Shown one piece after another: positions 37,505-49,870 of a DNA stretch of 64,000 bases. The DNA lies in assembly GCA_015709495.1 (NCBI GenBank), contig CP054189.1, forward strand, positions 1,736,001 to 1,800,000. Reading direction: 5' to 3'. Positions within the stretch are counted from its first letter, which is position 1. Each line of letters opens with the position of its first letter. A program made the translations under genes and the position numbers. Source of the stretch: Chthonomonadaceae bacterium (GTDB lineage Bacteria > Armatimonadota > Fimbriimonadia > Fimbriimonadales > Fimbriimonadaceae). A model generated the notes under the pieces. The model worked only from the letters and a program-made list of their open reading frames with translations. It did not search any database and was not told the DNA's origin.

Positions 37505-40027
37505 TTACCTCCCGGCGCTCTCGATCGCGAGCCGGTCGAGTTCAGTAAGTTTGAACCGAACGCTGACAATATAGGGAGGTTTACCGGCTTCCCAATGGCC
37601 ATACGTAGTGCAAACGAAGGTTCCGTCAGGCAGAACCTCGACGCCAGGGTAGGCGCAATCGGCGCCTTGGAGGTTGTCCATGAGACGAACCCGGTACTGC
37701 CCCGGCTTGCCGGATTCAATATCTTCGAACCTCCCCACCCAGGCCACCCAGTCGCCGTGGGTCGGGCTTCCCGAAGCCATGTCGCGGAAGCTGATGACCA
37801 GGCGGCCGTCCGGCCCGTACTTCGCAGTATGACGGTCCCCCGTAAGTTCCCTTGCAACCTCTCGCGGCTCAGACCAGGAGGCTCCTTCGTCCTCGGAGAC
37901 GATCACGAACGAGTTCTTCAGGCGGCGGTTTTCGCGAAGCAAGACGGCCATGCGTTTCCCATCGGGCGAGCGCACCAGGCCTGGTTCGCAAAGGTGGACG
38001 TCGGATCGGCTCAGGACCTCCTCGGGGAAGGACCACGATAAACCACCGTCGCTTGAGAAGGTCTTATAGAGCGTGAACGTCCCGGCCGCCTTGCCGCCTG
38101 CTCGAAAGAACCTGCCATCGTCGTGGAACATTGCCAAATAGCGTCCGTCCGAGAGCCTTTCGACGAAACCCATGACGACGATTCCGCCCCAATCGCCTGC
38201 GGGCTTGAGCGGAGTCCAATTCGCGCCGTCGTCTTCGCTGAACGAAAGCCTCGCCGGGTACAAACCAGACCACAGGATGAGGCGCTTCTTGCCGGAAGGG
38301 TCGATCGTTCGAAAGACCGTGGGGGTCTCCAGGCTCGTCGCCCAGTTCTCAGGGACCGGGAGCCTACCGCTCCAAGTGAGCCCGCCGTTCGTGCTCTTCT
38401 TGAGGACGATCGGGCCTTTGCCGTGGCCTCGGGGGTAGGTGGCAAGAATCGTGCGCTGGTCTTCGAGCAGCAGAGTCGACACGTGGCCGAGGTACTGGCC
38501 CTCCTCTCGATCGACGACGACCTGCCTTCCTCGATCCTGCGAGAGGTCGAGCCACTTCGCCTGGGCCCCCTGATCGAGAGCCTGAATCGGGAAGTCCCGC
38601 GAGGGAAGATGCTCGCGCTCGGCAAGGGCCAGGAGTTCCCGGACGGCTTGGGGACGTTGCTTGGCGAGGTCGTTCGATTCCGTTGGGTCAGCGGAAAGGT
38701 CATAGAGTTCAACCGCTTCAGGAGCGTTCTTTAGGTTCGGCCGAACGATCTTTAGGTCGCCTCGAATCACGGCCTGCTGCTGCGTGCCTTCCGGGTACTC
38801 GAAATAGAGAAAGTCGTGTTTCCTCACTTGGGATAGGCCGAGCAACGTTGGCGCGAAGCTGATCCCGTCGAGACCGGTTGGGACGCTCGCGCCGCAGATC
38901 TCTGCGATCGTGGGGAACAGGTCATACGTTGCCCACATCGAGTTCTCAACCCTAGCGGGCCGGATTCTTGACTTCCAACGAGCCAGGAAGGGAACCCGAA
39001 TCCCGCCCTCATACAGGTTCGTTTTCATGCCGCGCAACTCGCCCAGCGAAGCGAAGAACTGCCGGTCGACGCCTCCGTTTGGCGCGGTTCCATTGTCGGA
39101 CTTGAATATGAAAAGGGTGTCGTCCGCAAGGCCCAAACCCTCGACGAGGTCGACGAGCCTCCCGACCGAGTGGTCGAGGTACGAGATCATCGCTGCGTAG
39201 GTGGCGCGGGGCCTCTCGCTGGGAAGGTAGCCGTTTTGACCGAGGTAAGGCGCAGGGTCCCACTCCCTCGGAAAACGCTCCACCCAGTCTTTGGGTGCTT
39301 GCAGTGCTGCGTGGGGAATCGTGGACGCAAAGTACAAGAAGAACGGCTTGTCCTTGCTCCTTGTGACGAACTCTTCTGCTTGTTCGAGCATGAGTTCGGG
39401 CGCATACTGCTCTCCCATAAACGAATCATAGGTTTCTGGCGGGGAACTGAGCCGCTGGTGGGCGCCGAAGTACCGATTGTTCTCGAGCAGAAACACGTCG
39501 TGGTTGCGCCAGAGGTGGGTGGGAGTGTAGTTGTGGGCTTGCCGCTGGCACAGGTACCCGAAGAAGAAGTCGAAGCCCTGCCGAAGGGGATGGCCCTCCG
39601 AACCGGGACCTCCCAGCCCCCACTTGCCTACGCAGGCCGTCGCGTAGCCCTTCTGTCGAAGCACCTCTGCGAGAGTGACCTCTTCGTCGGGCAGGGGGTG
39701 TTGCCCTTCACCTTGGTTGAGCCCCCAACCACCGACCTCCTTGTTCCCTCGAATCGAGGCGTGGCCGGTGTGCTTTCCCGTAAGCAGCGAACACCGTGTA
39801 GGGGCGCAAACGGTGCTGGCCGAGTAGAACCTCGTGAACCGAACCCCCTCTTCGGCAAAGGCATCGAGGCGGGGCGTGGCCATTCGCTGTTGCCCATAGG
39901 AGCCCAGCTCACCGATGCCGAGGTCGTCGGCCATGATCAGGATCACGTTGGGCGGCCGGGAGCCTTGGAGCGGGGCGCCGGGTTCGATCGCCGAAAACGC
40001 AAGGAGAGTCGTCAGGGCCCCGAGCAT
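37505..40027 (-). CDS. Exported sulfatase fused to a sialidase-fold domain
   Basis: An 840-residue two-domain exported protein. Residues 25-460 are an arylsulfatase: NVILIMADDLGIGELGSYG binds metal, and CAPTR (Cys74) is the CxPxR site converted to formylglycine. LYFEYPEGTQQQAV ends that part. Residues from about 490 form a BNR/sialidase-like propeller with four Asp-box motifs of the SxDxGxxW type (STNGGLTW, SEDDGANW, SSDGGLSW, SEDEGASW). Start ATG 40027 sits six bases after a TAAAGT hexamer. The fusion suggests removal of sulfate and then cleavage of a terminal sugar from the same sulfated glycan. The sialidase catalytic residues were not all located. Confidence 0.9.
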   Translation of the reverse strand: MLGALTTLLAFSAIEPGAPLQGSRPPNVILIMADDLGIGELGSYGQQRMATPRLDAFAEEGVRFTRFYSASTVCAPTRCSLLTGKHTGHASIRGNKEVGGWGLNQGEGQHPLPDEEVTLAEVLRQKGYATACVGKWGLGGPGSEGHPLRQGFDFFFGYLCQRQAHNYTPTHLWRNHDVFLLENNRYFGAHQRLSSPPETYDSFMGEQYAPELMLEQAEEFVTRSKDKPFFLYFASTIPHAALQAPKDWVERFPREWDPAPYLGQNGYLPSERPRATYAAMISYLDHSVGRLVDLVEGLGLADDTLFIFKSDNGTAPNGGVDRQFFASLGELRGMKTNLYEGGIRVPFLARWKSRIRPARVENSMWATYDLFPTIAEICGASVPTGLDGISFAPTLLGLSQVRKHDFLYFEYPEGTQQQAVIRGDLKIVRPNLKNAPEAVELYDLSADPTESNDLAKQRPQAVRELLALAEREHLPSRDFPIQALDQGAQAKWLDLSQDRGRQVVVDREEGQYLGHVSTLLLEDQRTILATYPRGHGKGPIVLKKSTNGGLTWSGRLPVPENWATSLETPTVFRTIDPSGKKRLILWSGLYPARLSFSEDDGANWTPLKPAGDWGGIVVMGFVERLSDGRYLAMFHDDGRFFRAGGKAAGTFTLYKTFSSDGGLSWSFPEEVLSRSDVHLCEPGLVRSPDGKRMAVLLRENRRLKNSFVIVSEDEGASWSEPREVARELTGDRHTAKYGPDGRLVISFRDMASGSPTHGDWVAWVGRFEDIESGKPGQYRVRLMDNLQGADCAYPGVEVLPDGTFVCTTYGHWEAGKPPYIVSVRFKLTELDRLAIESAGR

Positions 40028-40033
40028 GGGCAC

Positions 40034-41622: not shown

Positions 41623-42354
41623 TTATTCCGCGATCCCCATGGACTCCTCAAACCCGGCCATCAGGTTGAGGGCGTGGACGAGTTGGGCTGCGCCGCATTT
41701 GCCGTTGCGATCGGCGATCACGCGGACGGCCACCAAGCACGTTGGCTCGTCGCTCGCGCTCACTTCAACCGAATAGAATGCGTAGGGAGACCCCTCGACC
41801 TCGTCCCAGGGCAAGGTCGGTCCGGGCCTCTCCCAGACGAAGAACGACCGGCCGAAGGACTCTTCATACAGGGACCGGACCTCCTCTGGAGAATCGGGCG
41901 TCCGGACGACCGCCATGCCCGTGCAGGCGAGGACCGTTCCCGCATCGACGGGCTCGTAAACGCAATGTGCTTCGCCCGTCCAAGACTCGGTCGCCAGCCA
42001 CGCGGCGACGTCTTCCCCCGAGTCTTCGAAGGAGAAGGCGATGCTCGGAGGCTCAAGGGGCGCGCCCGCGCGGAGCAGCGGCCCGACCGCAATCAGGGCA
42101 AGGGTGGAGGCGGATCCAGGGACCGACATTTCGTCGGCGCATACGATCGGGTTGTTGTCCATCAACTCGATCAGTCCCTTGACCGGGAGGTCGGGACGAT
42201 CCACCTCGATGCGGCGTTCCCAAGCGCCTTGCTGGAACCGAATGCCGGAGGTCGCTTCTTCCATCCACTCGATATGCGGATGGCGAGACAGAAGGCGCGA
42301 CAGCCCCTCGATTGGGGCGGCCCACACCTGCACCGTCGAAGTAGCGACTTCCAT
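41623..42354 (-). CDS. Degenerate semialdehyde-dehydrogenase-like protein (no catalytic Cys)
   Basis: A 243-residue protein that resembles the second domain of aspartate-semialdehyde dehydrogenase or ArgC. SVPGSASTLALIAVGPLLRAG near 77-97 aligns with the family's PxCST or PGCYPT active-site helix, but the Cys is Ser81. VRVIADRNGKCGAAQ near 211 aligns with the conserved DNxRKGAA motif. The NAD-binding Rossmann domain is largely missing, since only about 70 residues precede the active-site motif. It is therefore unlikely to be a working dehydrogenase. GGAGGGG precedes ATG 42354. It is the third gene after alanine dehydrogenase, with 13-base spacing. Confidence 0.68.
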   Translation of the reverse strand: MEVATSTVQVWAAPIEGLSRLLSRHPHIEWMEEATSGIRFQQGAWERRIEVDRPDLPVKGLIELMDNNPIVCADEMSVPGSASTLALIAVGPLLRAGAPLEPPSIAFSFEDSGEDVAAWLATESWTGEAHCVYEPVDAGTVLACTGMAVVRTPDSPEEVRSLYEESFGRSFFVWERPGPTLPWDEVEGSPYAFYSVEVSASDEPTCLVAVRVIADRNGKCGAAQLVHALNLMAGFEESMGIAE

Positions 42355-42367
42355 GCGCCCCCCTCCG

Positions 42368-43060
42368 TCACACCCTCTTGACGGTGACGGTCGAGTTCAG
42401 TTTCATGGGTTTTCCGCCGTTCTGGCCGGGCATCGTGACGGTCATCTTGATGTTCGACGATTGCAGCGAGCCGTCGGAAAGGCGAAGCATCGACTCGCCT
42501 GAGCCGGTGATCGTCATGCCGCTTCCGCCACCCTTGACCGTTGAGGAGACCACGGCGACGTCGAGGTTGCCGACTTTCTTGACGGCGACCAGCTTATAGG
42601 TTGCGGTGAGTTTGCCGCCCGCTCCCATCTGCCCTGGACCCGCCATCTCGCCGCTCCACGTGCCTCCGATGCCGACCGGCTTGTCAGGGAACGTAATGTT
42701 CGAAACCTGCTGAGAAGCAGACCCTCCCACGATCTTGCCTTTGCTATCGAGCTTGAGCGTCTGGATGGTCGGTTTGCCTTGCGCCTGGCCGTTCACAACC
42801 GGCGGGCCGACGGTGAACTCGACGGTGGCGACTCCATTTGCGACCGAAAGGACTTTCTGGCTGAACGGGGTACTGAAGGGCATTGAACCGCCGGTGGGCA
42901 GGGACGTCGTTGCCGTCATCTGGTACTTGGAGATCACGCCCTTGGTGAACTTCATGCGGAAGAGATAACCGTTGCCGCTCTTGCTGATTTGGGGTAGCGC
43001 CGCCGTAGCTGAGAAACCGAGCAGCAGCGCCGCGGGGATGACCTTTCGCAATGTTTTCAT
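42368..43060 (-). CDS. Exported protein of unknown function
   Basis: A 230-residue secreted protein. AAGGAG is six bases before ATG 43060, and the signal peptide is MKTLRKVIPAALLLGFSATA. The mature part is beta-rich, glycine- and serine-rich, with two similar halves (VLSVANGVATVEFTV, KGGGSGMTITGSGESMLRL) and a repeated TVT pattern. I recognise no family with certainty; it looks like a periplasmic beta-sandwich. It lies 9 bases after alanine dehydrogenase and so belongs to that operon. Confidence 0.75.
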   Translation of the reverse strand: MKTLRKVIPAALLLGFSATAALPQISKSGNGYLFRMKFTKGVISKYQMTATTSLPTGGSMPFSTPFSQKVLSVANGVATVEFTVGPPVVNGQAQGKPTIQTLKLDSKGKIVGGSASQQVSNITFPDKPVGIGGTWSGEMAGPGQMGAGGKLTATYKLVAVKKVGNLDVAVVSSTVKGGGSGMTITGSGESMLRLSDGSLQSSNIKMTVTMPGQNGGKPMKLNSTVTVKRV

Positions 43061-43069
43061 CTTGTCTCC

Positions 43070-44197
43070 TTATACGTTGACGGTTCGGGGCAGGTTGAGG
43101 TACTCGATTGCCGGGACGAACGGGTACCCAAACTGCTCGGCGATAGGCTGCAGCGTGACCGCGCCCTCGGCGACGTTGAGTCCCTTTCGGAGCGCCTCGT
43201 CTTGCCGGAGGGCGTCGAGTCCGTGGTCGGCGATTCTGAGCACGTAGGGAAGGGTGGCGTTTGTGAGGGCATAGGTGCTGGTGTGGGCCACCGCGCCGGG
43301 CATATTGGCCACCGCATAATGAACGACCCCGTCCACGGTATACACCGGGTTCCCGTGCGTGGTGGCTTTCGTCGTTTCAAAACAGCCGCCTTGGTCGACG
43401 CTGACGTCCACCATCACGGAACCCTGCTTCATGGAACTCAGCATGTCTCGGCGGATCAGTACGGGCGCGCGCGCCCCCACAAGGTAAACGGCGCCCACCA
43501 CGAGGTCGGCTTCTTGAATGACGTCCGCGATCGTTCCGGGGTTGCTGTGGAGGGTGATGACGTTGTTCGGGAAGATGTCGTCGAAGTAGCGAAGCCGGTC
43601 TAAGTTCACGTCGAGAACGTACACCGTCGCCCCAAGGCCAGCGGCGAGCTTCACTGCGTTGATCCCGACGATCCCTCCGCCGATCACGGCAACGATGCCC
43701 GGCCGGACTCCCGGCACGCCGGAGAGAAGCACGCCGCGTCCGCCCATGGGCCTTTCGAGGTATTTCGCGCCCTGCTGGATGCTCAGCCGGCCGGCAACTT
43801 CGCTCATCGGCGTCAGCAGCGGCAGGGTCCCATGCAACTCGACTGTCTCGTAGGCGATGCAGACCGCCTGGCTCTCGACCATCCCCCGCATGAGCGTTTC
43901 CGAGGCCGCGAAGTGGAAGTAGGTGAAGATGACCTGCTTGGGGCGGGTTCGCGGGAACTCGACGGACTGGGGCTCCTTCACCTTCACGATCAGGTCGGCT
44001 TGGCTCCACACCTCGTCGACCGGCGCGATTTCTGCGCCCGCCGCTCGGTAGTCGGAATCGGGAATGTGCGTGCCTTCGCCAGCGCCTTGCTCGACCACGA
44101 CACGGTGCCCGTGTTGGGTCAAGAGGAGGACTCCGGCAGGGGTCATGGCGACGCGGTATTCGTCAGGTTTGATCTCTTTGGGGACGCCGACAACCAT
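43070..44197 (-). CDS. ald: Alanine dehydrogenase
   Basis: NAD-dependent reversible deamination of L-alanine to pyruvate and ammonium. The length of 375 residues is standard. PKEIKPDEYRVAMTP marks the N-terminus. The pyruvate and catalytic residues lie in IVKVKEPQ near 72 and TYFHFA near 93. VAVIGGGIVGINAVKLA near 168 is the nucleotide fold, and VDVSVDQGGCFET near 266 is the family signature with the catalytic Asp. It is the first gene of a three-gene unit with two genes of unknown function. GGAG lies about 13 bases upstream of ATG 44197, rather far. Confidence 0.96.
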   Translation of the reverse strand: MVVGVPKEIKPDEYRVAMTPAGVLLLTQHGHRVVVEQGAGEGTHIPDSDYRAAGAEIAPVDEVWSQADLIVKVKEPQSVEFPRTRPKQVIFTYFHFAASETLMRGMVESQAVCIAYETVELHGTLPLLTPMSEVAGRLSIQQGAKYLERPMGGRGVLLSGVPGVRPGIVAVIGGGIVGINAVKLAAGLGATVYVLDVNLDRLRYFDDIFPNNVITLHSNPGTIADVIQEADLVVGAVYLVGARAPVLIRRDMLSSMKQGSVMVDVSVDQGGCFETTKATTHGNPVYTVDGVVHYAVANMPGAVAHTSTYALTNATLPYVLRIADHGLDALRQDEALRKGLNVAEGAVTLQPIAEQFGYPFVPAIEYLNLPRTVNV

Positions 44198-44287: not shown

Positions 44288-45067
44288 CTACTCGATGGAC
44301 TTGAGCTCGATTTCGAAGAACAGCAGGCTTTCGCCGGGGATGAAACCGGTCCCGCTCCTTCCGAAGGCGGTTTCTGGCGGAAGTCGCAGGCGACGCTTGC
44401 CGCCAACCTTCATGCCGATCATTCCCGCGTCCACTCCCTTGAGCGCTTGCCCGACGCCCAATGTGAAGCTGACCGGCTGCTTCTTCTTGTAAGTCGAATC
44501 GACCAGCTTCCCGTTGGCTAAGGTGCAAATGTATTCGACCGTGACGTGGTCGCCTTTTTGGGCCTCGCGACCCGATCCCGCGACGAGGTCTTGCTGGTCG
44601 AAAACTCGCTCCTCGCCCTTTTTCACGATCTCGTCGAGCCGCACCTCGAACTCGAGGTCGCTGTTTGCGGGGATGGGCCCGAGTTCCATGTCGCCGTAGG
44701 CAAGGCGGGACGGGATCCTCAGCTTGCGAACTCCCCCCACCTTCATCCCCATGATGCCGAGCCTCCAGCCTTCGATGACCTGATCCCGCAAGCCAAGGTC
44801 AAACGTGAACGGCATCGCTTCGGGCTTGTCGTTCGATTCAAACACGGTGCCGTCCATCAGCCTGCCCGTGTAGGTGATATAGACGCGGTCGCCCTCTTCG
44901 GCGAGTTGCCCGGTGCCTACCTTGAGGTCGGACGTTTCCAACTCCTTGAGACCCTTCGTATCGGGTTGGGAGGCGTCGCCCGAGGCGCTCGGCGAAGCTG
45001 AACTCCCGCATCCCACGACGAACGCGAGGGCAGGCACGACAAAAAAGGCGCAAAGGGTGGCGCGCAT
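44288..45067 (-). CDS. Lipoprotein with two FKBP-type peptidyl-prolyl isomerase domains
   Basis: A 259-residue lipoprotein. The lipobox is FVVGC in the first 20 residues. Two FKBP domains follow: residues about 45-150 (VYITYTGRLMDGTVFESN, VIEGWRLGIMGMKVGG, RLAYGDM) and about 160-259 (VTVEYICTLANGKLVDST, LKGVDAGMIGMKVGGKR, ETAFGRSG). Both keep most of the hydrophobic pocket, though the second has ETAFGRSG instead of the usual YG. It would help fold periplasmic or outer-membrane proteins. A TAAATT hexamer six bases before ATG 45067 suggests a leaderless mRNA; AGAGGT is present but 13 bases away. Confidence 0.9.
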   Translation of the reverse strand: MRATLCAFFVVPALAFVVGCGSSASPSASGDASQPDTKGLKELETSDLKVGTGQLAEEGDRVYITYTGRLMDGTVFESNDKPEAMPFTFDLGLRDQVIEGWRLGIMGMKVGGVRKLRIPSRLAYGDMELGPIPANSDLEFEVRLDEIVKKGEERVFDQQDLVAGSGREAQKGDHVTVEYICTLANGKLVDSTYKKKQPVSFTLGVGQALKGVDAGMIGMKVGGKRRLRLPPETAFGRSGTGFIPGESLLFFEIELKSIE

Positions 45068-45073
45068 AGCAGC

Positions 45074-45079
45074 AATTTA
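45074..45079 (-). promoter_or_regulatory. -10 hexamer of a predicted leaderless transcript (FKBP gene)
   Basis: TAAATT on the minus strand lies six bases before ATG 45067. A distant AGAGGT could instead serve as ribosome site, so the call is tentative. Confidence 0.4.
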
Positions 45080-45127
45080 CCTCTAACAACAGGCGATTCG
45101 CCCCAGTTCCCAAGGCGCTTGAACCGG

Positions 45128-45133
45128 TACAAT
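45128..45133 (+). promoter_or_regulatory. -10 hexamer of a predicted leaderless transcript (smpB)
   Basis: TACAAT lies eight bases before ATG 45142. The spacer (TCCGCCCC) is C-rich and cannot act as a Shine-Dalgarno sequence. Confidence 0.52.
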
Positions 45134-45141
45134 TCCGCCCC

Positions 45142-45624
45142 ATGTCGGGCAAAGCCAAAGCCAAGAGCGAGCCTGCCGGGCCCAAGGCGATCGAGAATCG
45201 CCGGAGCCGCCACGACTACGAGTTCGTCGAGACCTTCGAAGCTGGGATCGCGCTGGTCGGTTCGGAGGTCAAGAGCCTCTATCTGGGCAGGGCCAACCTC
45301 ACCGACGCTTATTGCAAGGTGGAGAACGGCGAACTATGGCTCCATGAGTTCGACATCGAGCCTTACAAGTTCTCGACGGCGTATTCGACCGCGCGCAGAC
45401 GGGAAAGGAAGCTCCTCATGCACCGCAAGGAGATCGATACGTTGGAGCGCAAAGTGCAAGAAAAGGGCCTGACGCTCATTCCTTTCAAAGTTTATTTCAA
45501 GAACGGGCGCGCCAAGGTGGCTCTTGCGCTTGCACGAGGGAAAAGGCAATACGATAAGCGCAAGCAGATCGCGGACCGCGAACAGCGCCGCGAGGTCGAG
45601 CGGCTTCAAGGTCGAAGAAAGTAG
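45142..45624 (+). CDS. smpB: SsrA-binding protein SmpB
   Basis: Binds tmRNA and delivers it to stalled ribosomes for trans-translation. Typical motifs are NRRSRHDYEFVETFEAGIAL near residue 19, GSEVKSLYLGRANLTDAY near 41, and RKLLMHRKEID near 93. The basic tail ends in ERLQGRRK. The length of 160 residues is normal. The tmRNA gene itself was not found in the window. It is monocistronic, with a PilZ gene downstream in the same direction after 58 bases. Confidence 0.97.
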   Translation: MSGKAKAKSEPAGPKAIENRRSRHDYEFVETFEAGIALVGSEVKSLYLGRANLTDAYCKVENGELWLHEFDIEPYKFSTAYSTARRRERKLLMHRKEIDTLERKVQEKGLTLIPFKVYFKNGRAKVALALARGKRQYDKRKQIADREQRREVERLQGRRK

Positions 45625-45682
45625 CCGCTGAACGTCTGAGTTTCTCGCCTAAGCCTGCCGATACTGTACGTGGGAGAACCCG

Positions 45683-46288
45683 ATGCAGACAGGCCCGCTT
45701 GAACCTGACGTTACCACCGCTTCGCTCGTTTGCTACATTGACGGCGAACCTCGCTGCGTGGATTCGGAGATCGTGCAGTTCGACCCGATCGTGGTGCGTT
45801 GCCCGAGAGCTTCGCTTCACGACGTTCCACAATCTGGCCGAATTATGGCGATTATTGGTGAAGGTTATGACCCTAAGAGGGTGGACTTTCATGTGAACCG
45901 GGTGTGGACGGAGCACGGCGCGACCTTGATCGAAGGGCGCAACGCCTCATGGTCCACGGTGGACCGCCGCCGATTCCCCCGTTACGAGCTTCGGATTCCG
46001 CTCTCCTTGAGAGTCGTTTCGAGCGAGGCCGACGGCATTAAGATGAAGGAATGGCACGGCGAAACCATCGATATCAGCATGGGCGGTGCGTGGCTTTCGG
46101 GGGATGTGGACGTCAACAAGGGCACTTTGGTGCAGACGCAAATCCAACTTGGCGGCTCAGAACCTCTACGCGTGCTCTCGATGGTGGCGTGGAAAGAGGA
46201 CGATCGTTCCAGCTTCGGAATTACGTTCCTCGACTTCATCGGAGCGGGCAGCTACGTTTTGCACCAATACTTGAATACAGCCGCTTGA
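45683..46288 (+). CDS. PilZ-domain c-di-GMP receptor
   Basis: A 201-residue cytoplasmic protein. The N-terminal 90 residues resemble a YcgR-type accessory barrel. The PilZ domain then carries both c-di-GMP motifs: RRRFPRYELR near residue 93 (RxxxR) and DISMGGAWL near 132 (D/NxSxxG). It should bind c-di-GMP made by enzymes such as the GGDEF protein at 4.6-6.6 kb. Targets are unknown; pilus or polysaccharide control is plausible. GGGAG lies about eight bases before ATG 45683. It converges on dapF with 3 bases between the stops. Confidence 0.9.
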   Translation: MQTGPLEPDVTTASLVCYIDGEPRCVDSEIVQFDPIVVRCPRASLHDVPQSGRIMAIIGEGYDPKRVDFHVNRVWTEHGATLIEGRNASWSTVDRRRFPRYELRIPLSLRVVSSEADGIKMKEWHGETIDISMGGAWLSGDVDVNKGTLVQTQIQLGGSEPLRVLSMVAWKEDDRSSFGITFLDFIGAGSYVLHQYLNTAA

Positions 46289-46291
46289 GCC

Positions 46292-47128
46292 TTAGCGCTC
46301 ATCGGGCTCGAGCCATCCGCCCTCGAACACGAACTCGGCGGGTCCGGCCATGAACACGTGTCCCGAAGGGGCATATTCGATCTTCAGGTTTCCGCCCGGA
46401 AGTTCCACGGTTACTGCAGAATCCGCGCGCCCAGTGACGTGCGCCGCAACTGTCGCCGCGCAAGCTCCCGTTCCGCATGCGAGCGTCGCTCCAGCGGCCC
46501 TTTCCCAGGTTCTTTGACGTAGCGTTGTGGGTGAGAGAACCTGCACGAAATGGACGTTGACCCGGTTCGGGAAGAGTGAGTGCGCCTCCAATTCGGGCCC
46601 CCAGACCTCGAGCGGGACCGCCTGGACATCGTCCACGATCACGACCAGGTGGGGGTTGCCCATCGAAACCGCGGTTCCGTTGAGGCCGGACGAGTGCGCG
46701 AGAGGCTCGTCGACGAACTTAGCCTGGGGGTCGCCCGACATCCCGATTTCACCGCGCAAGAGCCTCGCGGGCCCCATGTCCACCCGAACCCAGCCGTTGG
46801 AGGAAATTTCAAGTTGCAGGACTCCCGCGCCGGTCTCCAATGAAACGACAGGCTCTTGGGTCCATCCTTCGCGGTGCAGCCAGCGCAGGACGCACCGGAC
46901 CCCATTGCCGCACATTTCGCTTTCGGATCCGTCGGGGTTCAGCATCCGCATCTGAAAATCCGCGTTCGTGGCGCGGCCTATCAGAAGCAAGCCATCCGAG
47001 CCAACGCCGAACCTGCGGTCGCACATCGCACGGGCAAGATTGGGCCACCCAGACTCGGGGCCGCAACGTTCGGCGTCAGCAACCACGAAGTCGTTGCCGA
47101 TGCCGTGCATCTTAGTGAATCGAATCAC
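46292..47128 (-). CDS. dapF: Diaminopimelate epimerase
   Basis: Converts LL- to meso-diaminopimelate for lysine and peptidoglycan. The two catalytic cysteines are in EMCGNGVRC near residue 72 and [10 protein letters not shown] near 218. [10 protein letters not shown] opens the protein. The length of 278 residues is standard. GTG 47128 overlaps the stop of hfq (GTGA), so translation is coupled. It ends the miaA-hfq-dapF operon. Joining DapF with Hfq in this way is not the usual E. coli layout. Confidence 0.95.
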
Positions 47129-47391
47129 TCCCCTTCAGAACTCGACGCGCCCTCAGACTCGCCATGAGGCCGATAGGTGGCGATTTGCTTGTTGGGAACG
47201 ATGCTTGCGACCGCGTGCTTGTAAACGAGCTGAGTCGGCTTGCCCGGTGAGTCGAGGAGCACCGTGAATGCGTCGAATCCACGAACGTGGCCGCGAAGCT
47301 GAACGCTGTTGGTGAGGTAGATGGTGACTCCGATGCCATCTTTTCTCACCTGGTTCAGAAACATATCCTGCAGGTTGATCGATTTTGCCAT
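47125..47391 (-). CDS. hfq: RNA chaperone Hfq
   Basis: Sm-like hexameric RNA chaperone that pairs small RNAs with mRNAs. The 88-residue sequence has the Sm1 motif [15 protein letters not shown] with [21 protein letters not shown]. The Sm2 motif reads [12 protein letters not shown], with KHA where KHA or KHS is usual. The C-terminal tail ([12 protein letters not shown]) is acidic, like the tails of several Hfq proteins. ATG 47391 lies 9 bases after the miaA stop. The miaA-hfq order is conserved in many bacteria, supporting the assignment. Confidence 0.95.
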
Positions 47392-47400
47392 TGCCCTAAA

Positions 47401-48282
47401 TCACACAGTAGTAAGGTACGGCATGCTTTGCTCCAGCCAACCCTCCACCTCCTCGGATGCGGAAACGGGGATCAGGCCCGACTCGGCTTTCAGCCAAGTT
47501 AACTGCCGCTTTGCGTACCTTAGCGTATCTGCTTCAATTTCTGCCACGGTTTCGGGCCACGAAGTTCGTCCTTGAAGGTGTCGCAGGATCGGAAAATATC
47601 CTATCGCCCGCAGAGCAGGGTAGGACTCATCGACGCCGGCGCGCACAAGAGACTCCACTTCCTCTCGCCAGCCTCTTGCGATCATTTCCGCAATCCTTTG
47701 CCGTATGCGCTCCTTTCGATCTTCGGGGCTCCGCCGGACTTCGAACTTGATTTTCCGGAACGGCGGGACCTCGAACTGGATCGGCTCGGAGGTTTCTTCG
47801 AGCCTTTCGAGCGCGCGGCAGACTCGGACCGGGTTCTTCAGGTCGATCCGCGAAGCTACCTCCGGTGCTCTCCTGAGAAGATCGGTTGCAAGAGCTTCGA
47901 TGCCTTCCTCCCGAAGTCTCGCCTGAAGGCGCTTCCGAAGTTCGGGGTCGGGGGCGGTGTGAAGCTCGCGAAACTCCTCGAAAAGCGCCCGAACGTACTG
48001 GCCGGTACCGCCGACGACGATGACATGCCGCCGCTCGCTCCAGAGGGCGCGCAGTTCTTCGGTTGCACGAAGCACCCAATCGCCTACGCCGAACGGCTCG
48101 CTGGGGTTGAGGATGTCGATCAGCCGGTATCGCTCGCGATGCTCGGGCTTGGCCGTGCCGATGTCGAGGCCCCTATAAACCTGAAACGCATCGGCGTTGA
48201 CGAGAACTGCGCCGAGGCGGTCGGCGAGCCTCTCAGCGGCCTCGGTTTTCCCCGACGCGGTCACGCCCATCACGGCGATCAA
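47401..48282 (-). CDS. miaA: tRNA dimethylallyltransferase
   Basis: Adds a dimethylallyl group to A37 of tRNAs reading U-initial codons. Walker A is GVTASGKTEAAE, followed by VNADAFQVYRGLDIGTAKP near residue 28, YRLIDILNPSEPF near 53 and VGGTGQYVRAL near 92. The family tail RYAKRQLTWLK is present near the C-terminus. The start is uncertain: TTG 48282 (four residues before the P-loop glycine strand) is my choice; GTG 48273 and TTG 48348 are alternatives, and the last would overlap the upstream OB-fold gene. It is first in the miaA-hfq-dapF run and may be co-transcribed with apt. Confidence 0.93.
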   Translation of the reverse strand: MIAVMGVTASGKTEAAERLADRLGAVLVNADAFQVYRGLDIGTAKPEHRERYRLIDILNPSEPFGVGDWVLRATEELRALWSERRHVIVVGGTGQYVRALFEEFRELHTAPDPELRKRLQARLREEGIEALATDLLRRAPEVASRIDLKNPVRVCRALERLEETSEPIQFEVPPFRKIKFEVRRSPEDRKERIRQRIAEMIARGWREEVESLVRAGVDESYPALRAIGYFPILRHLQGRTSWPETVAEIEADTLRYAKRQLTWLKAESGLIPVSASEEVEGWLEQSMPYLTTV

Positions 48283-48299
48283 CCAGGGCGTTTCGGGCT

Positions 48300-48710
48300 C
48301 TACTTCGCTTCCTTGATCCCGAACGGCTTGTCTTTCTTGACCGTGCAATCGATTTCGTTCTTGTACGTGAAGTCGCCGATGACCTTTTCCTTGCGATACG
48401 TTCCGGTCACCGTCACCTTCAATCCGTCCTTCAACTCGAACGTGGGTTCGTTTTGGCCGTAGATATTGGCCGACGCCGACTCCGACGATCCCTTGACGGA
48501 CCTTAGGATGAACTTGAAGTACTTGTTGCCCCGCTGGGAGGTCTTCTGTTGGAAACTGGCCACAAAGCCCGTGACTTCCACGACCTTCTCGTTGTATTTG
48601 TCCTGGTCCTTCTTGAGCGCGTCGAGCGTGATCTTCTCGACTTCAGCGAGCGAAGCGGCCAAGCTGAGCGCGGCCATCAAAACGAGTGAAAAGCTGAGGA
48701 GTTTCTTCAT
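48300..48710 (-). CDS. Exported OB-fold-like small protein
   Basis: A 136-residue secreted protein. A signal peptide (MKKLLSFSLVLMAALSLAAS) precedes an OB-like barrel: EKVVEVTGFVASFQQ, NKYFKFILRS and GLKVTVTGTYRKEK. This pattern fits bacterial OB-fold/tRNA_anti-like domains. The start codon lies one base after the apt stop codon, so translation is coupled to apt. Ligand and role are unknown. Confidence 0.75.
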   Translation of the reverse strand: MKKLLSFSLVLMAALSLAASLAEVEKITLDALKKDQDKYNEKVVEVTGFVASFQQKTSQRGNKYFKFILRSVKGSSESASANIYGQNEPTFELKDGLKVTVTGTYRKEKVIGDFTYKNEIDCTVKKDKPFGIKEAK

Positions 48711-48711
48711 G

Positions 48712-49233
48712 TCAATACTCGAGCAAAGTGTACACCGGATATTCGAGGAGGTTCTGCCGTCCTGAAAGAAAAGTGAGCTCGACCATGAATCCGAACCCCG
48801 CGACCTTGCCTTGGAGTCTCTCGACCAGGCGCGCCGCCGCCGCCGCCGTGCCGCCCGTTGCGAGGAGGTCGTCTACGATGTACACGCGTTGGCCCGGGTT
48901 GACGGCGTCGATGTGCATCTCCACGGTGTTGGTGGCGTATTCGAGAGCGTACTCTTCGGAAATTCGGTCGAAGGGAAGTTTGCCGAGCTTCCGAGCCATC
49001 GAAAACGGCAGGCCCAATTCCAGGGCGATCGGCGCGCCGAACACGAACCCACGGCTTTCGATCCCCACGATCACATCGGCTTCCTGCTGCCGGGCGTCGT
49101 CAGCGAGCATTCCCACGACTTCAGCGAAGGCCGCAGGACTCTGAAGGACGGGGTGGATGTCCTTGAACTGAATCCCTTGGTGAGGGAAGTCCGGTACGTT
49201 GCGAATCAGCGAAGCTGCAAGAAGCTCGGGCAT
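48712..49233 (-). CDS. apt: Adenine phosphoribosyltransferase
   Basis: Salvages adenine with PRPP to AMP. RNVPDFPHQGIQFKDI near residue 11 and IESRGFVFGAPIA near 59 are typical of Apt, and VDDLLATGGTAAAA near 119 is the PRPP loop. The length of 173 residues from ATG 49233 is standard, so the longer frame to 49260 was not used. A TATAGT box ten bases upstream may be the promoter, giving a leader of only a few bases. The downstream gene encodes an exported OB-fold protein, an unexpected partner. Confidence 0.95.
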   Translation of the reverse strand: MPELLAASLIRNVPDFPHQGIQFKDIHPVLQSPAAFAEVVGMLADDARQQEADVIVGIESRGFVFGAPIALELGLPFSMARKLGKLPFDRISEEYALEYATNTVEMHIDAVNPGQRVYIVDDLLATGGTAAAAARLVERLQGKVAGFGFMVELTFLSGRQNLLEYPVYTLLEY

Positions 49234-49282
49234 ACCGGGCGTCACTATACCCGCGCCCAAGCAATCCCGCCAGAAAGCTCGT

Positions 49283-49870
49283 TCAGCTTGAATGGACCTG
49301 CGTGACGTCCGGCGCGTCTCGCTGACTGGGGAGATCGACTTCGAAGAACTCCGCGGACTCGAAGTTGCCTAGGGACGCGACGAGGTTGCTTGGAAACGAC
49401 TCGATCTTGGTGTTGTAGTCCCGGACGCACGCGTTGAAGTACTGCCGAGCTGAGGCGATGAGGCGCTCAGATTCGGCAAGCTCCGTTTGCAGCGAGGCGA
49501 AGTTCTTGTTGGCCTTTAGTTCGGGATAGGCCTCCGCGAGCGCGACGACTCTCACGAGGCTTTCGCCCAGTTGAGTCTCCGCTTGTGCGTGCTGTGCGGT
49601 GGGCCCTACCAGAGCCGTGGCGCGCGCGCGAGCTTCGGCAACGGCTTTCAGCACGGTCTTTTCGTGCTGCGCGTACGCTCGAACGGTCTCGACGACGTTC
49701 GGGACTAGTTCGGCCCGCCTTTTCAGGTACACGTCCACGTCGGCCCAAGCGCTCTTGACCAACTGCCGCAAGCGCACCAACCCGTTGTAGGAAACGATGA
49801 GCGCGACGAGCAGCGCACCGCCCACAACTGCGATTCCCCAAACCACGAGCGAACCCGATCCGCCGATCAT
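49283..49870 (-). CDS. lemA: LemA-family membrane protein
   Basis: A 195-residue inner-membrane protein. One N-terminal helix (VVWGIAVVGGALLVALIVSY) is followed by the LemA bundle with YNGLVRLRQLVKSAWADVDV, RRAELVPNVVETVRAYAQHE and YNTKIESFPSNLVA. Function is poorly known across bacteria; it may be linked to envelope integrity. It lies 49 bases upstream of apt on the same strand. No clear ribosome site is visible before ATG 49870. Confidence 0.93.
   Translation of the reverse strand: MIGGSGSLVVWGIAVVGGALLVALIVSYNGLVRLRQLVKSAWADVDVYLKRRAELVPNVVETVRAYAQHEKTVLKAVAEARARATALVGPTAQHAQAETQLGESLVRVVALAEAYPELKANKNFASLQTELAESERLIASARQYFNACVRDYNTKIESFPSNLVASLGNFESAEFFEVDLPSQRDAPDVTQVHSS

Follow-up and report, generated by a model that had tools for sequence, protein, structure and literature searches.

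The question raised by this locus is why a bacterium keeps a short gene that resembles a dehydrogenase from which most of the cofactor-binding domain is missing. The gene lies in a 64,000-nucleotide stretch of DNA from a Chthonomonadaceae bacterium (the whole stretch being referred to here as the window), and the earlier note had taken it for the remnant of a semialdehyde dehydrogenase kept within an alanine dehydrogenase operon. An open frame was indeed found where that note had placed it. This frame, its parts and its neighbours are listed below, with the evidence for each in brackets.

41623..42354, minus strand: short ArgC-derived gene, 243 amino acids plus stop, ATG start (window ORF listing, TIGR01850, PDB profile search, hhalign, VIA-align, orthologues)
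42362..42366, minus strand: Shine-Dalgarno-like GGAGG (sequence)
42184..42354, minus strand: residues 1-57, what is left of the Rossmann (NADP) domain, much reduced and without a conserved glycine loop (AlphaFold and alignment)
42139..42159, minus strand: residues 66-72, D-N-N-P-x-V-C, not in ArgC (50/50 rows covering the motif)
42070..42114, minus strand: residues 81-95, former nucleophile helix, helical over 81-95 in the model (hhalign, AlphaFold, residue counts)
41641..41712, minus strand: residues 215-238, D-x-x-G-K-x-G-x-x-Q-x-x-H-x-x-N-x-M-x-G-x-E-E, largely kept from ArgC (alignments)
42368..43060, minus strand: DUF6263-like protein of 230 amino acids directly upstream, with a start that looks by eye like a signal peptide (Pfam E 0.00026)
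43070..44197, minus strand: alanine dehydrogenase, a non-constant neighbour (TIGR00518, 489.9 bits)
44288..45067, minus strand: FKBP-like exported protein, labelled by eye and not by family search (17/41 loci)

The short gene is genuine, and purifying selection acts on it. The ribosome site and the tight spacing that had been claimed for it were both found, GGAGG standing at 42362-42366 and the start codon lying 13 nt past the stop of the upstream gene. In four pairs of close orthologues, substitutions pile up mostly at the third codon position (changes at positions 1/2/3 of 5/3/12, 18/13/66, 32/14/101 and 59/53/132), and dN/dS, a comparison proposed in advance, is far from neutral at 0.174, 0.191, 0.102 and 0.204 (dS < 1.5). 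Eleven further pairs with more than 55% identity gave 0.16-0.20 in four cases (dS 2.1-2.5) and were saturated in the other seven. This selection agrees with the view that the gene has been retained and is probably expressed in a new role. An antisense ORF at 41674-42381 on the plus strand was considered as the true gene and ruled out, because in each of the four close pairs the sense frame was better conserved than any antisense frame, and most antisense frames contain stops (one is open in both members of the window's own species pair). No signal peptide was seen in the short protein when it was judged by eye.

The short protein is derived from ArgC, and aspartate-semialdehyde dehydrogenase (ASADH) is a more distant relative. 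This follows from the lead that ArgC takes in the profile, hhalign, Foldseek and VIA-align matches, with GAPDH and ASADH entries near Z 16 in the last of these. With TIGR01850, the NCBIfam model for ArgC, the window protein scores 32.2 bits (E 6.4e-8), short of the curated cut-off of 233.6 bits. Of the 41 rows of the alignment, 40 match this model at E <= 0.1; the window protein is present twice in that alignment, which thus holds 40 distinct rows. When a profile of the aligned rows was compared with the PDB, ArgC and LysY structures came top (best E 6.7e-8), and hhalign, run against 19 aligned ArgC-type proteins of this phylum, gave 98.7% and E 2.3e-16, so that the likeness to the semialdehyde-dehydrogenase superfamily stands. 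Two other searches with the window protein by itself were less telling: Pfam gave no match at E <= 1, and in the PDB the single sequence found ArgC only in third place (E 0.53), with an unrelated peptidase ahead at 0.029. An AlphaFold model built from six sequences only reached pLDDT 82.3 and pTM 0.85, falling below pLDDT 50 at residues 65-68 (the DNNP loop) and at the last residues, 235-243. Foldseek with this model placed Mycobacterium tuberculosis (Mtb) ArgC first (E 9.7e-12, with a moderate TM-score of 0.62 by query length), and VIA-align matched the same protein at Z 19.7 and rmsd 2.9 over 223 residues, so that the overall ArgC fold is present; the structural check proposed beforehand, a match to the ASADH/ArgC family, thus had a clear outcome. 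Alignment to ASADH/ArgC had been claimed, and it holds for ArgC; ASADH was the top match neither by sequence nor by fold, ArgC and LysY leading the profile search, Foldseek and VIA-align. The Pfam dimerisation domain PF22698 was matched in only 13/41 rows (best E 3.9e-4).

Much of what makes ArgC an enzyme has been lost, and labelling the short protein ArgC would be wrong. Residue 58 aligns by hhalign with approximately residue 127 of ArgC, and the Rossmann domain has therefore been reduced from about 126 to 57 residues, in agreement with the original observation that most of the NAD-binding domain is missing. AlphaFold predicts within these 57 residues strands at 8-12, 28-32, 37-42 and 45-51 and a helix at 18-23; residues 12-17 are variable and contain no conserved glycine in the 52-row alignment, so that the NADP glycine loop is absent. 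The catalytic His segment is gone too, the ArgC HRHTPE sequence (His208/His210) lying opposite a gap when the two profiles are aligned, and Arg239 of the ArgC RGI sequence aligns with Thr140. A serine in place of the catalytic cysteine had been noticed, and Ser81 does align with that Cys by hhalign; the serine itself is not conserved, since among 51 orthologues with a letter at this position 36 have Pro, 11 Ala, three Ser and one Gln, and none has Cys. We take the ArgC Cys, His and Arg positions named here to be catalytic or substrate-binding. The Asn of the ArgC D-N-L segment, presumably a nicotinamide contact after the example of GAPDH, corresponds to a variable position.

Other parts of the protein are strictly conserved. 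D66, N67, N68, P69, V71 and C72 of the DNNPxVC motif are identical in all 50 covering rows of the 52-row alignment, in which the two divergent copies are incomplete, L121 being present from the C-terminal part only and L122 without its N-terminal part. Towards the C-terminus, K219 (50/52), G221 (52/52), N230 (51/51), M232 (50/51), G234 (51/51) and E237 (51/51) are invariant or nearly so; most of the residues conserved in this segment align with like residues of ArgC, whereas DNNPxVC does not. His227 is present in 49/52 rows, opposite a glutamine (Gln324) that is invariant in the ArgC alignment, and His25 in 50/50 rows with a letter there. Of the two divergent copies, L121 (genome G028) reads DNNPLLC, and L122:6921-7691 (genome G163) has neither DNNP nor a normal C-terminus. 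The latter is perhaps a gene being lost; G024 and G162, from the same genus, have no match.

The short gene is a family of its own and not, as the word 'remnant' would have it, a relic in one operon. Of 291 genomes from the phylum, 81 have full-length orthologues (E 2.3e-63 or better), namely 73 of 85 members of the host's family (f1) and all eight of a second family (f5). The other 198 genomes yielded no orthologue, their best matches being E 3.4e-13 or weaker and, among the matches listed, mostly confined to the C-terminal portion of longer frames with the length of ArgC. Two more f1 genomes hold the divergent copies (G028 and G163), and three genomes with a similar gene order (G006, G032 and G035) gave no short-gene match better than E 5 in the 8-11 kb read; absence from family members such as these means that the gene is not universally required. 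Among named contigs, those that carry the gene bear the titles Fimbriimonadaceae, Fimbriimonadia, Armatimonadetes or Chthonomonas sp. Beyond the phylum set, a peptide-pattern scan of genome contigs confirmed five loci, all titled Armatimonadota, the patterns being such as to detect close relatives only and hence implying no absence outside the phylum. The same kind of pattern occurred in 15 stretches of viral contigs, none of them a relative, and no relative was found on plasmids. In a tree made by a quick method, which omits L121 and L122 and in which the named contigs L039 and L041 were assigned to f1 by the analyst, six of 47 inner branches were strongly supported and 25 were left open; f5 forms one side of a branch with SH-aLRT 98, which fits what vertical descent would produce.

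The neighbourhood of the gene differs between genomes. Placement in an alanine dehydrogenase operon is correct for the host genome; over the set of loci compared, ald was seen near the short gene in at least 7 of 41 (many of them with only ~1.5 kb of flank), and alanine dehydrogenase as a constant neighbour is not supported. The usual neighbour is instead the DUF6263-like gene. Outside f5 it stands immediately upstream in 36 of 44 loci, as judged with a profile built from BLAST-found members at 24 of the same loci (the two weakest of the 36 matches being E 0.0018 and 1.1e-6), and in most cases it either stops within ~35 nt of where the aligned part of the short gene begins or overlaps that point. 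The Pfam match of the window's own upstream protein scores 21.1 bits, under the cut-off of 26.7. Its model (pLDDT 78.7) consists almost wholly of beta structure, and Foldseek finds in it a weak likeness to LmcA and to exported proteins of the YmcC type (E 1.1e-4 and weaker). A DUF6263-like gene also adjoins the divergent copy of G028. None of the eight f5 loci has one upstream, homologues being located elsewhere in those genomes; seven of these loci have two conserved exported- or membrane-looking genes in its place, and three proteins of these genes had no Pfam match at E <= 0.1. The order smpB-like, FKBP-like, DUF6263-like, short gene is partly conserved (17/41 loci). Further along the window, positions 45070-49368 hold smpB together with PilZ-like, dapF-like, hfq-like, miaA-like and apt-like genes (by eye), in an order partly conserved among relatives, and positions 37505-40033 on the minus strand hold an 842-aa ORF in which an arylsulfatase is joined to a sialidase/BNR-repeat-like half (by eye).

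Arginine genes were surveyed in 61 relatives, 38 of which (the host included) have the full short gene; the remaining nine short-gene matches in this set fall in the C-terminal part of longer f2 frames, five of which were read and proved to be ArgC. ArgC-type genes were over the cut-off in 40 of the 61, ArgB in 40 and ArgJ in 25. The ArgC-type gene is present in 23 of the 38 carriers, 21 times over the cut-off and twice (G022 and G036) as sub-cut-off pieces at contig edges that were counted as positive; the host has argC with argJ and argB ~1.2 Mb from the short gene. The other 15 carriers, namely seven of f1 and all eight of f5, have no ArgC over the cut-off, no ArgB at E <= 1e-12 and no ArgJ at E <= 1e-20, and eight of them are 97-99% complete. 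The short protein is thus kept without arginine synthesis by argC/argB/argJ, and it need not serve that pathway. In f5, where ArgB, ArgJ and ArgC over the cut-off are lacking from every genome (G040, G042, G044, G046, G048, G050, G052 and G054), the family as a whole is apparently auxotrophic for arginine, to judge from gene content. Separately, some f1 genomes (e.g. G004, G006, G011, G012 and G018) have ArgC-type and ArgB genes with no ArgJ match, a hint of a route that does without ArgJ, with LysW as carrier or otherwise.

With confidence a little above even, we take the short protein to be a small pseudoenzyme derived from ArgC, probably dimeric, that acts as a putative sensor or adaptor for a ligand or partner through DNNPxVC, outside arginine synthesis. 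Its ancestry, the lost ArgC residues, the purifying selection and its presence in genomes without the arginine genes searched for are the observed part of this explanation. In an ancestor of the host lineage, as we see it, the substrate Arg, the catalytic Cys and His and the greater part of the NADP-binding domain would have disappeared from an ArgC-type reductase, leaving the small pseudoenzyme. The C-terminal domain, which has been retained and is present in the model, probably still mediates dimerisation. The newly fixed DNNPxVC loop may act with the C-terminal helix, likewise retained, to bind a small ligand or a protein partner, giving a role as sensor or adaptor that would not serve arginine synthesis. 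Pseudoenzymes that arise from central metabolic enzymes often remain tied to the parent; the short protein persists in genomes that seem to have lost the parent pathway, and therefore probably has a job of its own.

The main rival to the pseudoenzyme reading is a displaced active site: the invariant Cys and Asp and the near-invariant His could equally constitute a new one. This would be a new enzyme on the ArgC scaffold, with Cys72 and Asp66, Asn67/68, His227 or Lys219 as candidate catalytic residues. The conservation of DNNPxVC (50/50), His227 (49/52), Lys219 (50/52) and His25 (50/50), and the alignment of position 227 with ArgC Gln324, speak for it; however, the DNNP loop is modelled at pLDDT < 50 and the neighbours examined by Pfam give no pathway context, and we consider it unlikely. 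A broader proposal, advanced tentatively and with slightly more hope of being right than the new enzyme by itself, is that a lineage-specific family has rebuilt the ArgC scaffold, without its cofactor domain and nucleophile, around the fixed DNNPxVC, either as a displaced-site enzyme or as a dedicated sensor that has outlived arginine synthesis.

Function alongside the neighbouring gene seems more doubtful still. The short protein would then be the cytoplasmic partner of the exported DUF6263-like protein, translated together with it and concerned with envelope or lipid handling, as the 36/44 upstream placements, the placement beside the divergent copy of G028 and the faint likeness to LmcA and YmcC-like exported proteins would allow. 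Against this, the upstream gene is missing from all f5 loci (0/8), it is retained without the short gene in G006, G032 and G035, and the two proteins differ when judged by eye, the upstream one looking exported and the short one lacking a signal peptide. An ArgC or LysY subunit with a regulatory or accessory role could be expected to have the fold of those enzymes, as the short protein does, together with the PF22698 matches (13/41 rows, best E 3.9e-4), and 23/38 carriers do have an ArgC-type gene; the role is nevertheless disfavoured by the 15/38 carriers without argC over the cut-off, argB or argJ, eight of them 97-99% complete, and by the ~1.2 Mb that separate the gene from the host argC, argJ and argB, and we think it very improbable. 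That the gene can be lost is evident from the divergent copies (G028, G163) and the losses (G006, G032, G035). A decaying pseudogene or chance ORF can nonetheless be rejected with near certainty, there being neither neutral evolution (dN/dS 0.10-0.20) nor a broken frame, and the third-position bias, the lesser conservation of the antisense and the 81 full-length orthologues tell against it as well. Preferring the pseudoenzyme reading, we see here, in a phylum that has received little study, a testable case of a dehydrogenase that lost cofactor binding and chemistry and fixed a new motif. Literature searches found nothing on ArgC pseudoenzymes, Fimbriimonas ginsengisoli ArgC, DUF6263 or catalytically inactive semialdehyde dehydrogenase homologs.

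Amongst known systems, the closest comparison is with ArgC itself (N-acetyl-gamma-glutamyl-phosphate reductase; TIGR01850; Mtb Rv1652, PDB 2i3a), with which the short protein has a common fold over 223 residues, a G-L-x-E-L segment, the nucleophile helix and the C-terminal K/Q/N/M/G/E pattern. Unlike ArgC, it is ~100 residues shorter and has no catalytic Cys, His, substrate Arg or NADP glycine loop. LysY of Thermus (PDB 5ein/5eio) was the top PDB match by sequence profile (E 6.7e-8; Z 18.7), and the short protein differs from it in the same ways as from ArgC. ASADH and GAPDH have the same superfamily fold, at Z ~16 a weaker match than ArgC, and the asd-like gene of the host (by eye) is a separate one at G000:C1:2197888. 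A diverged relative of ASADH also exists in E. coli in the form of Usg, for which we know of no activity; Usg is full length.
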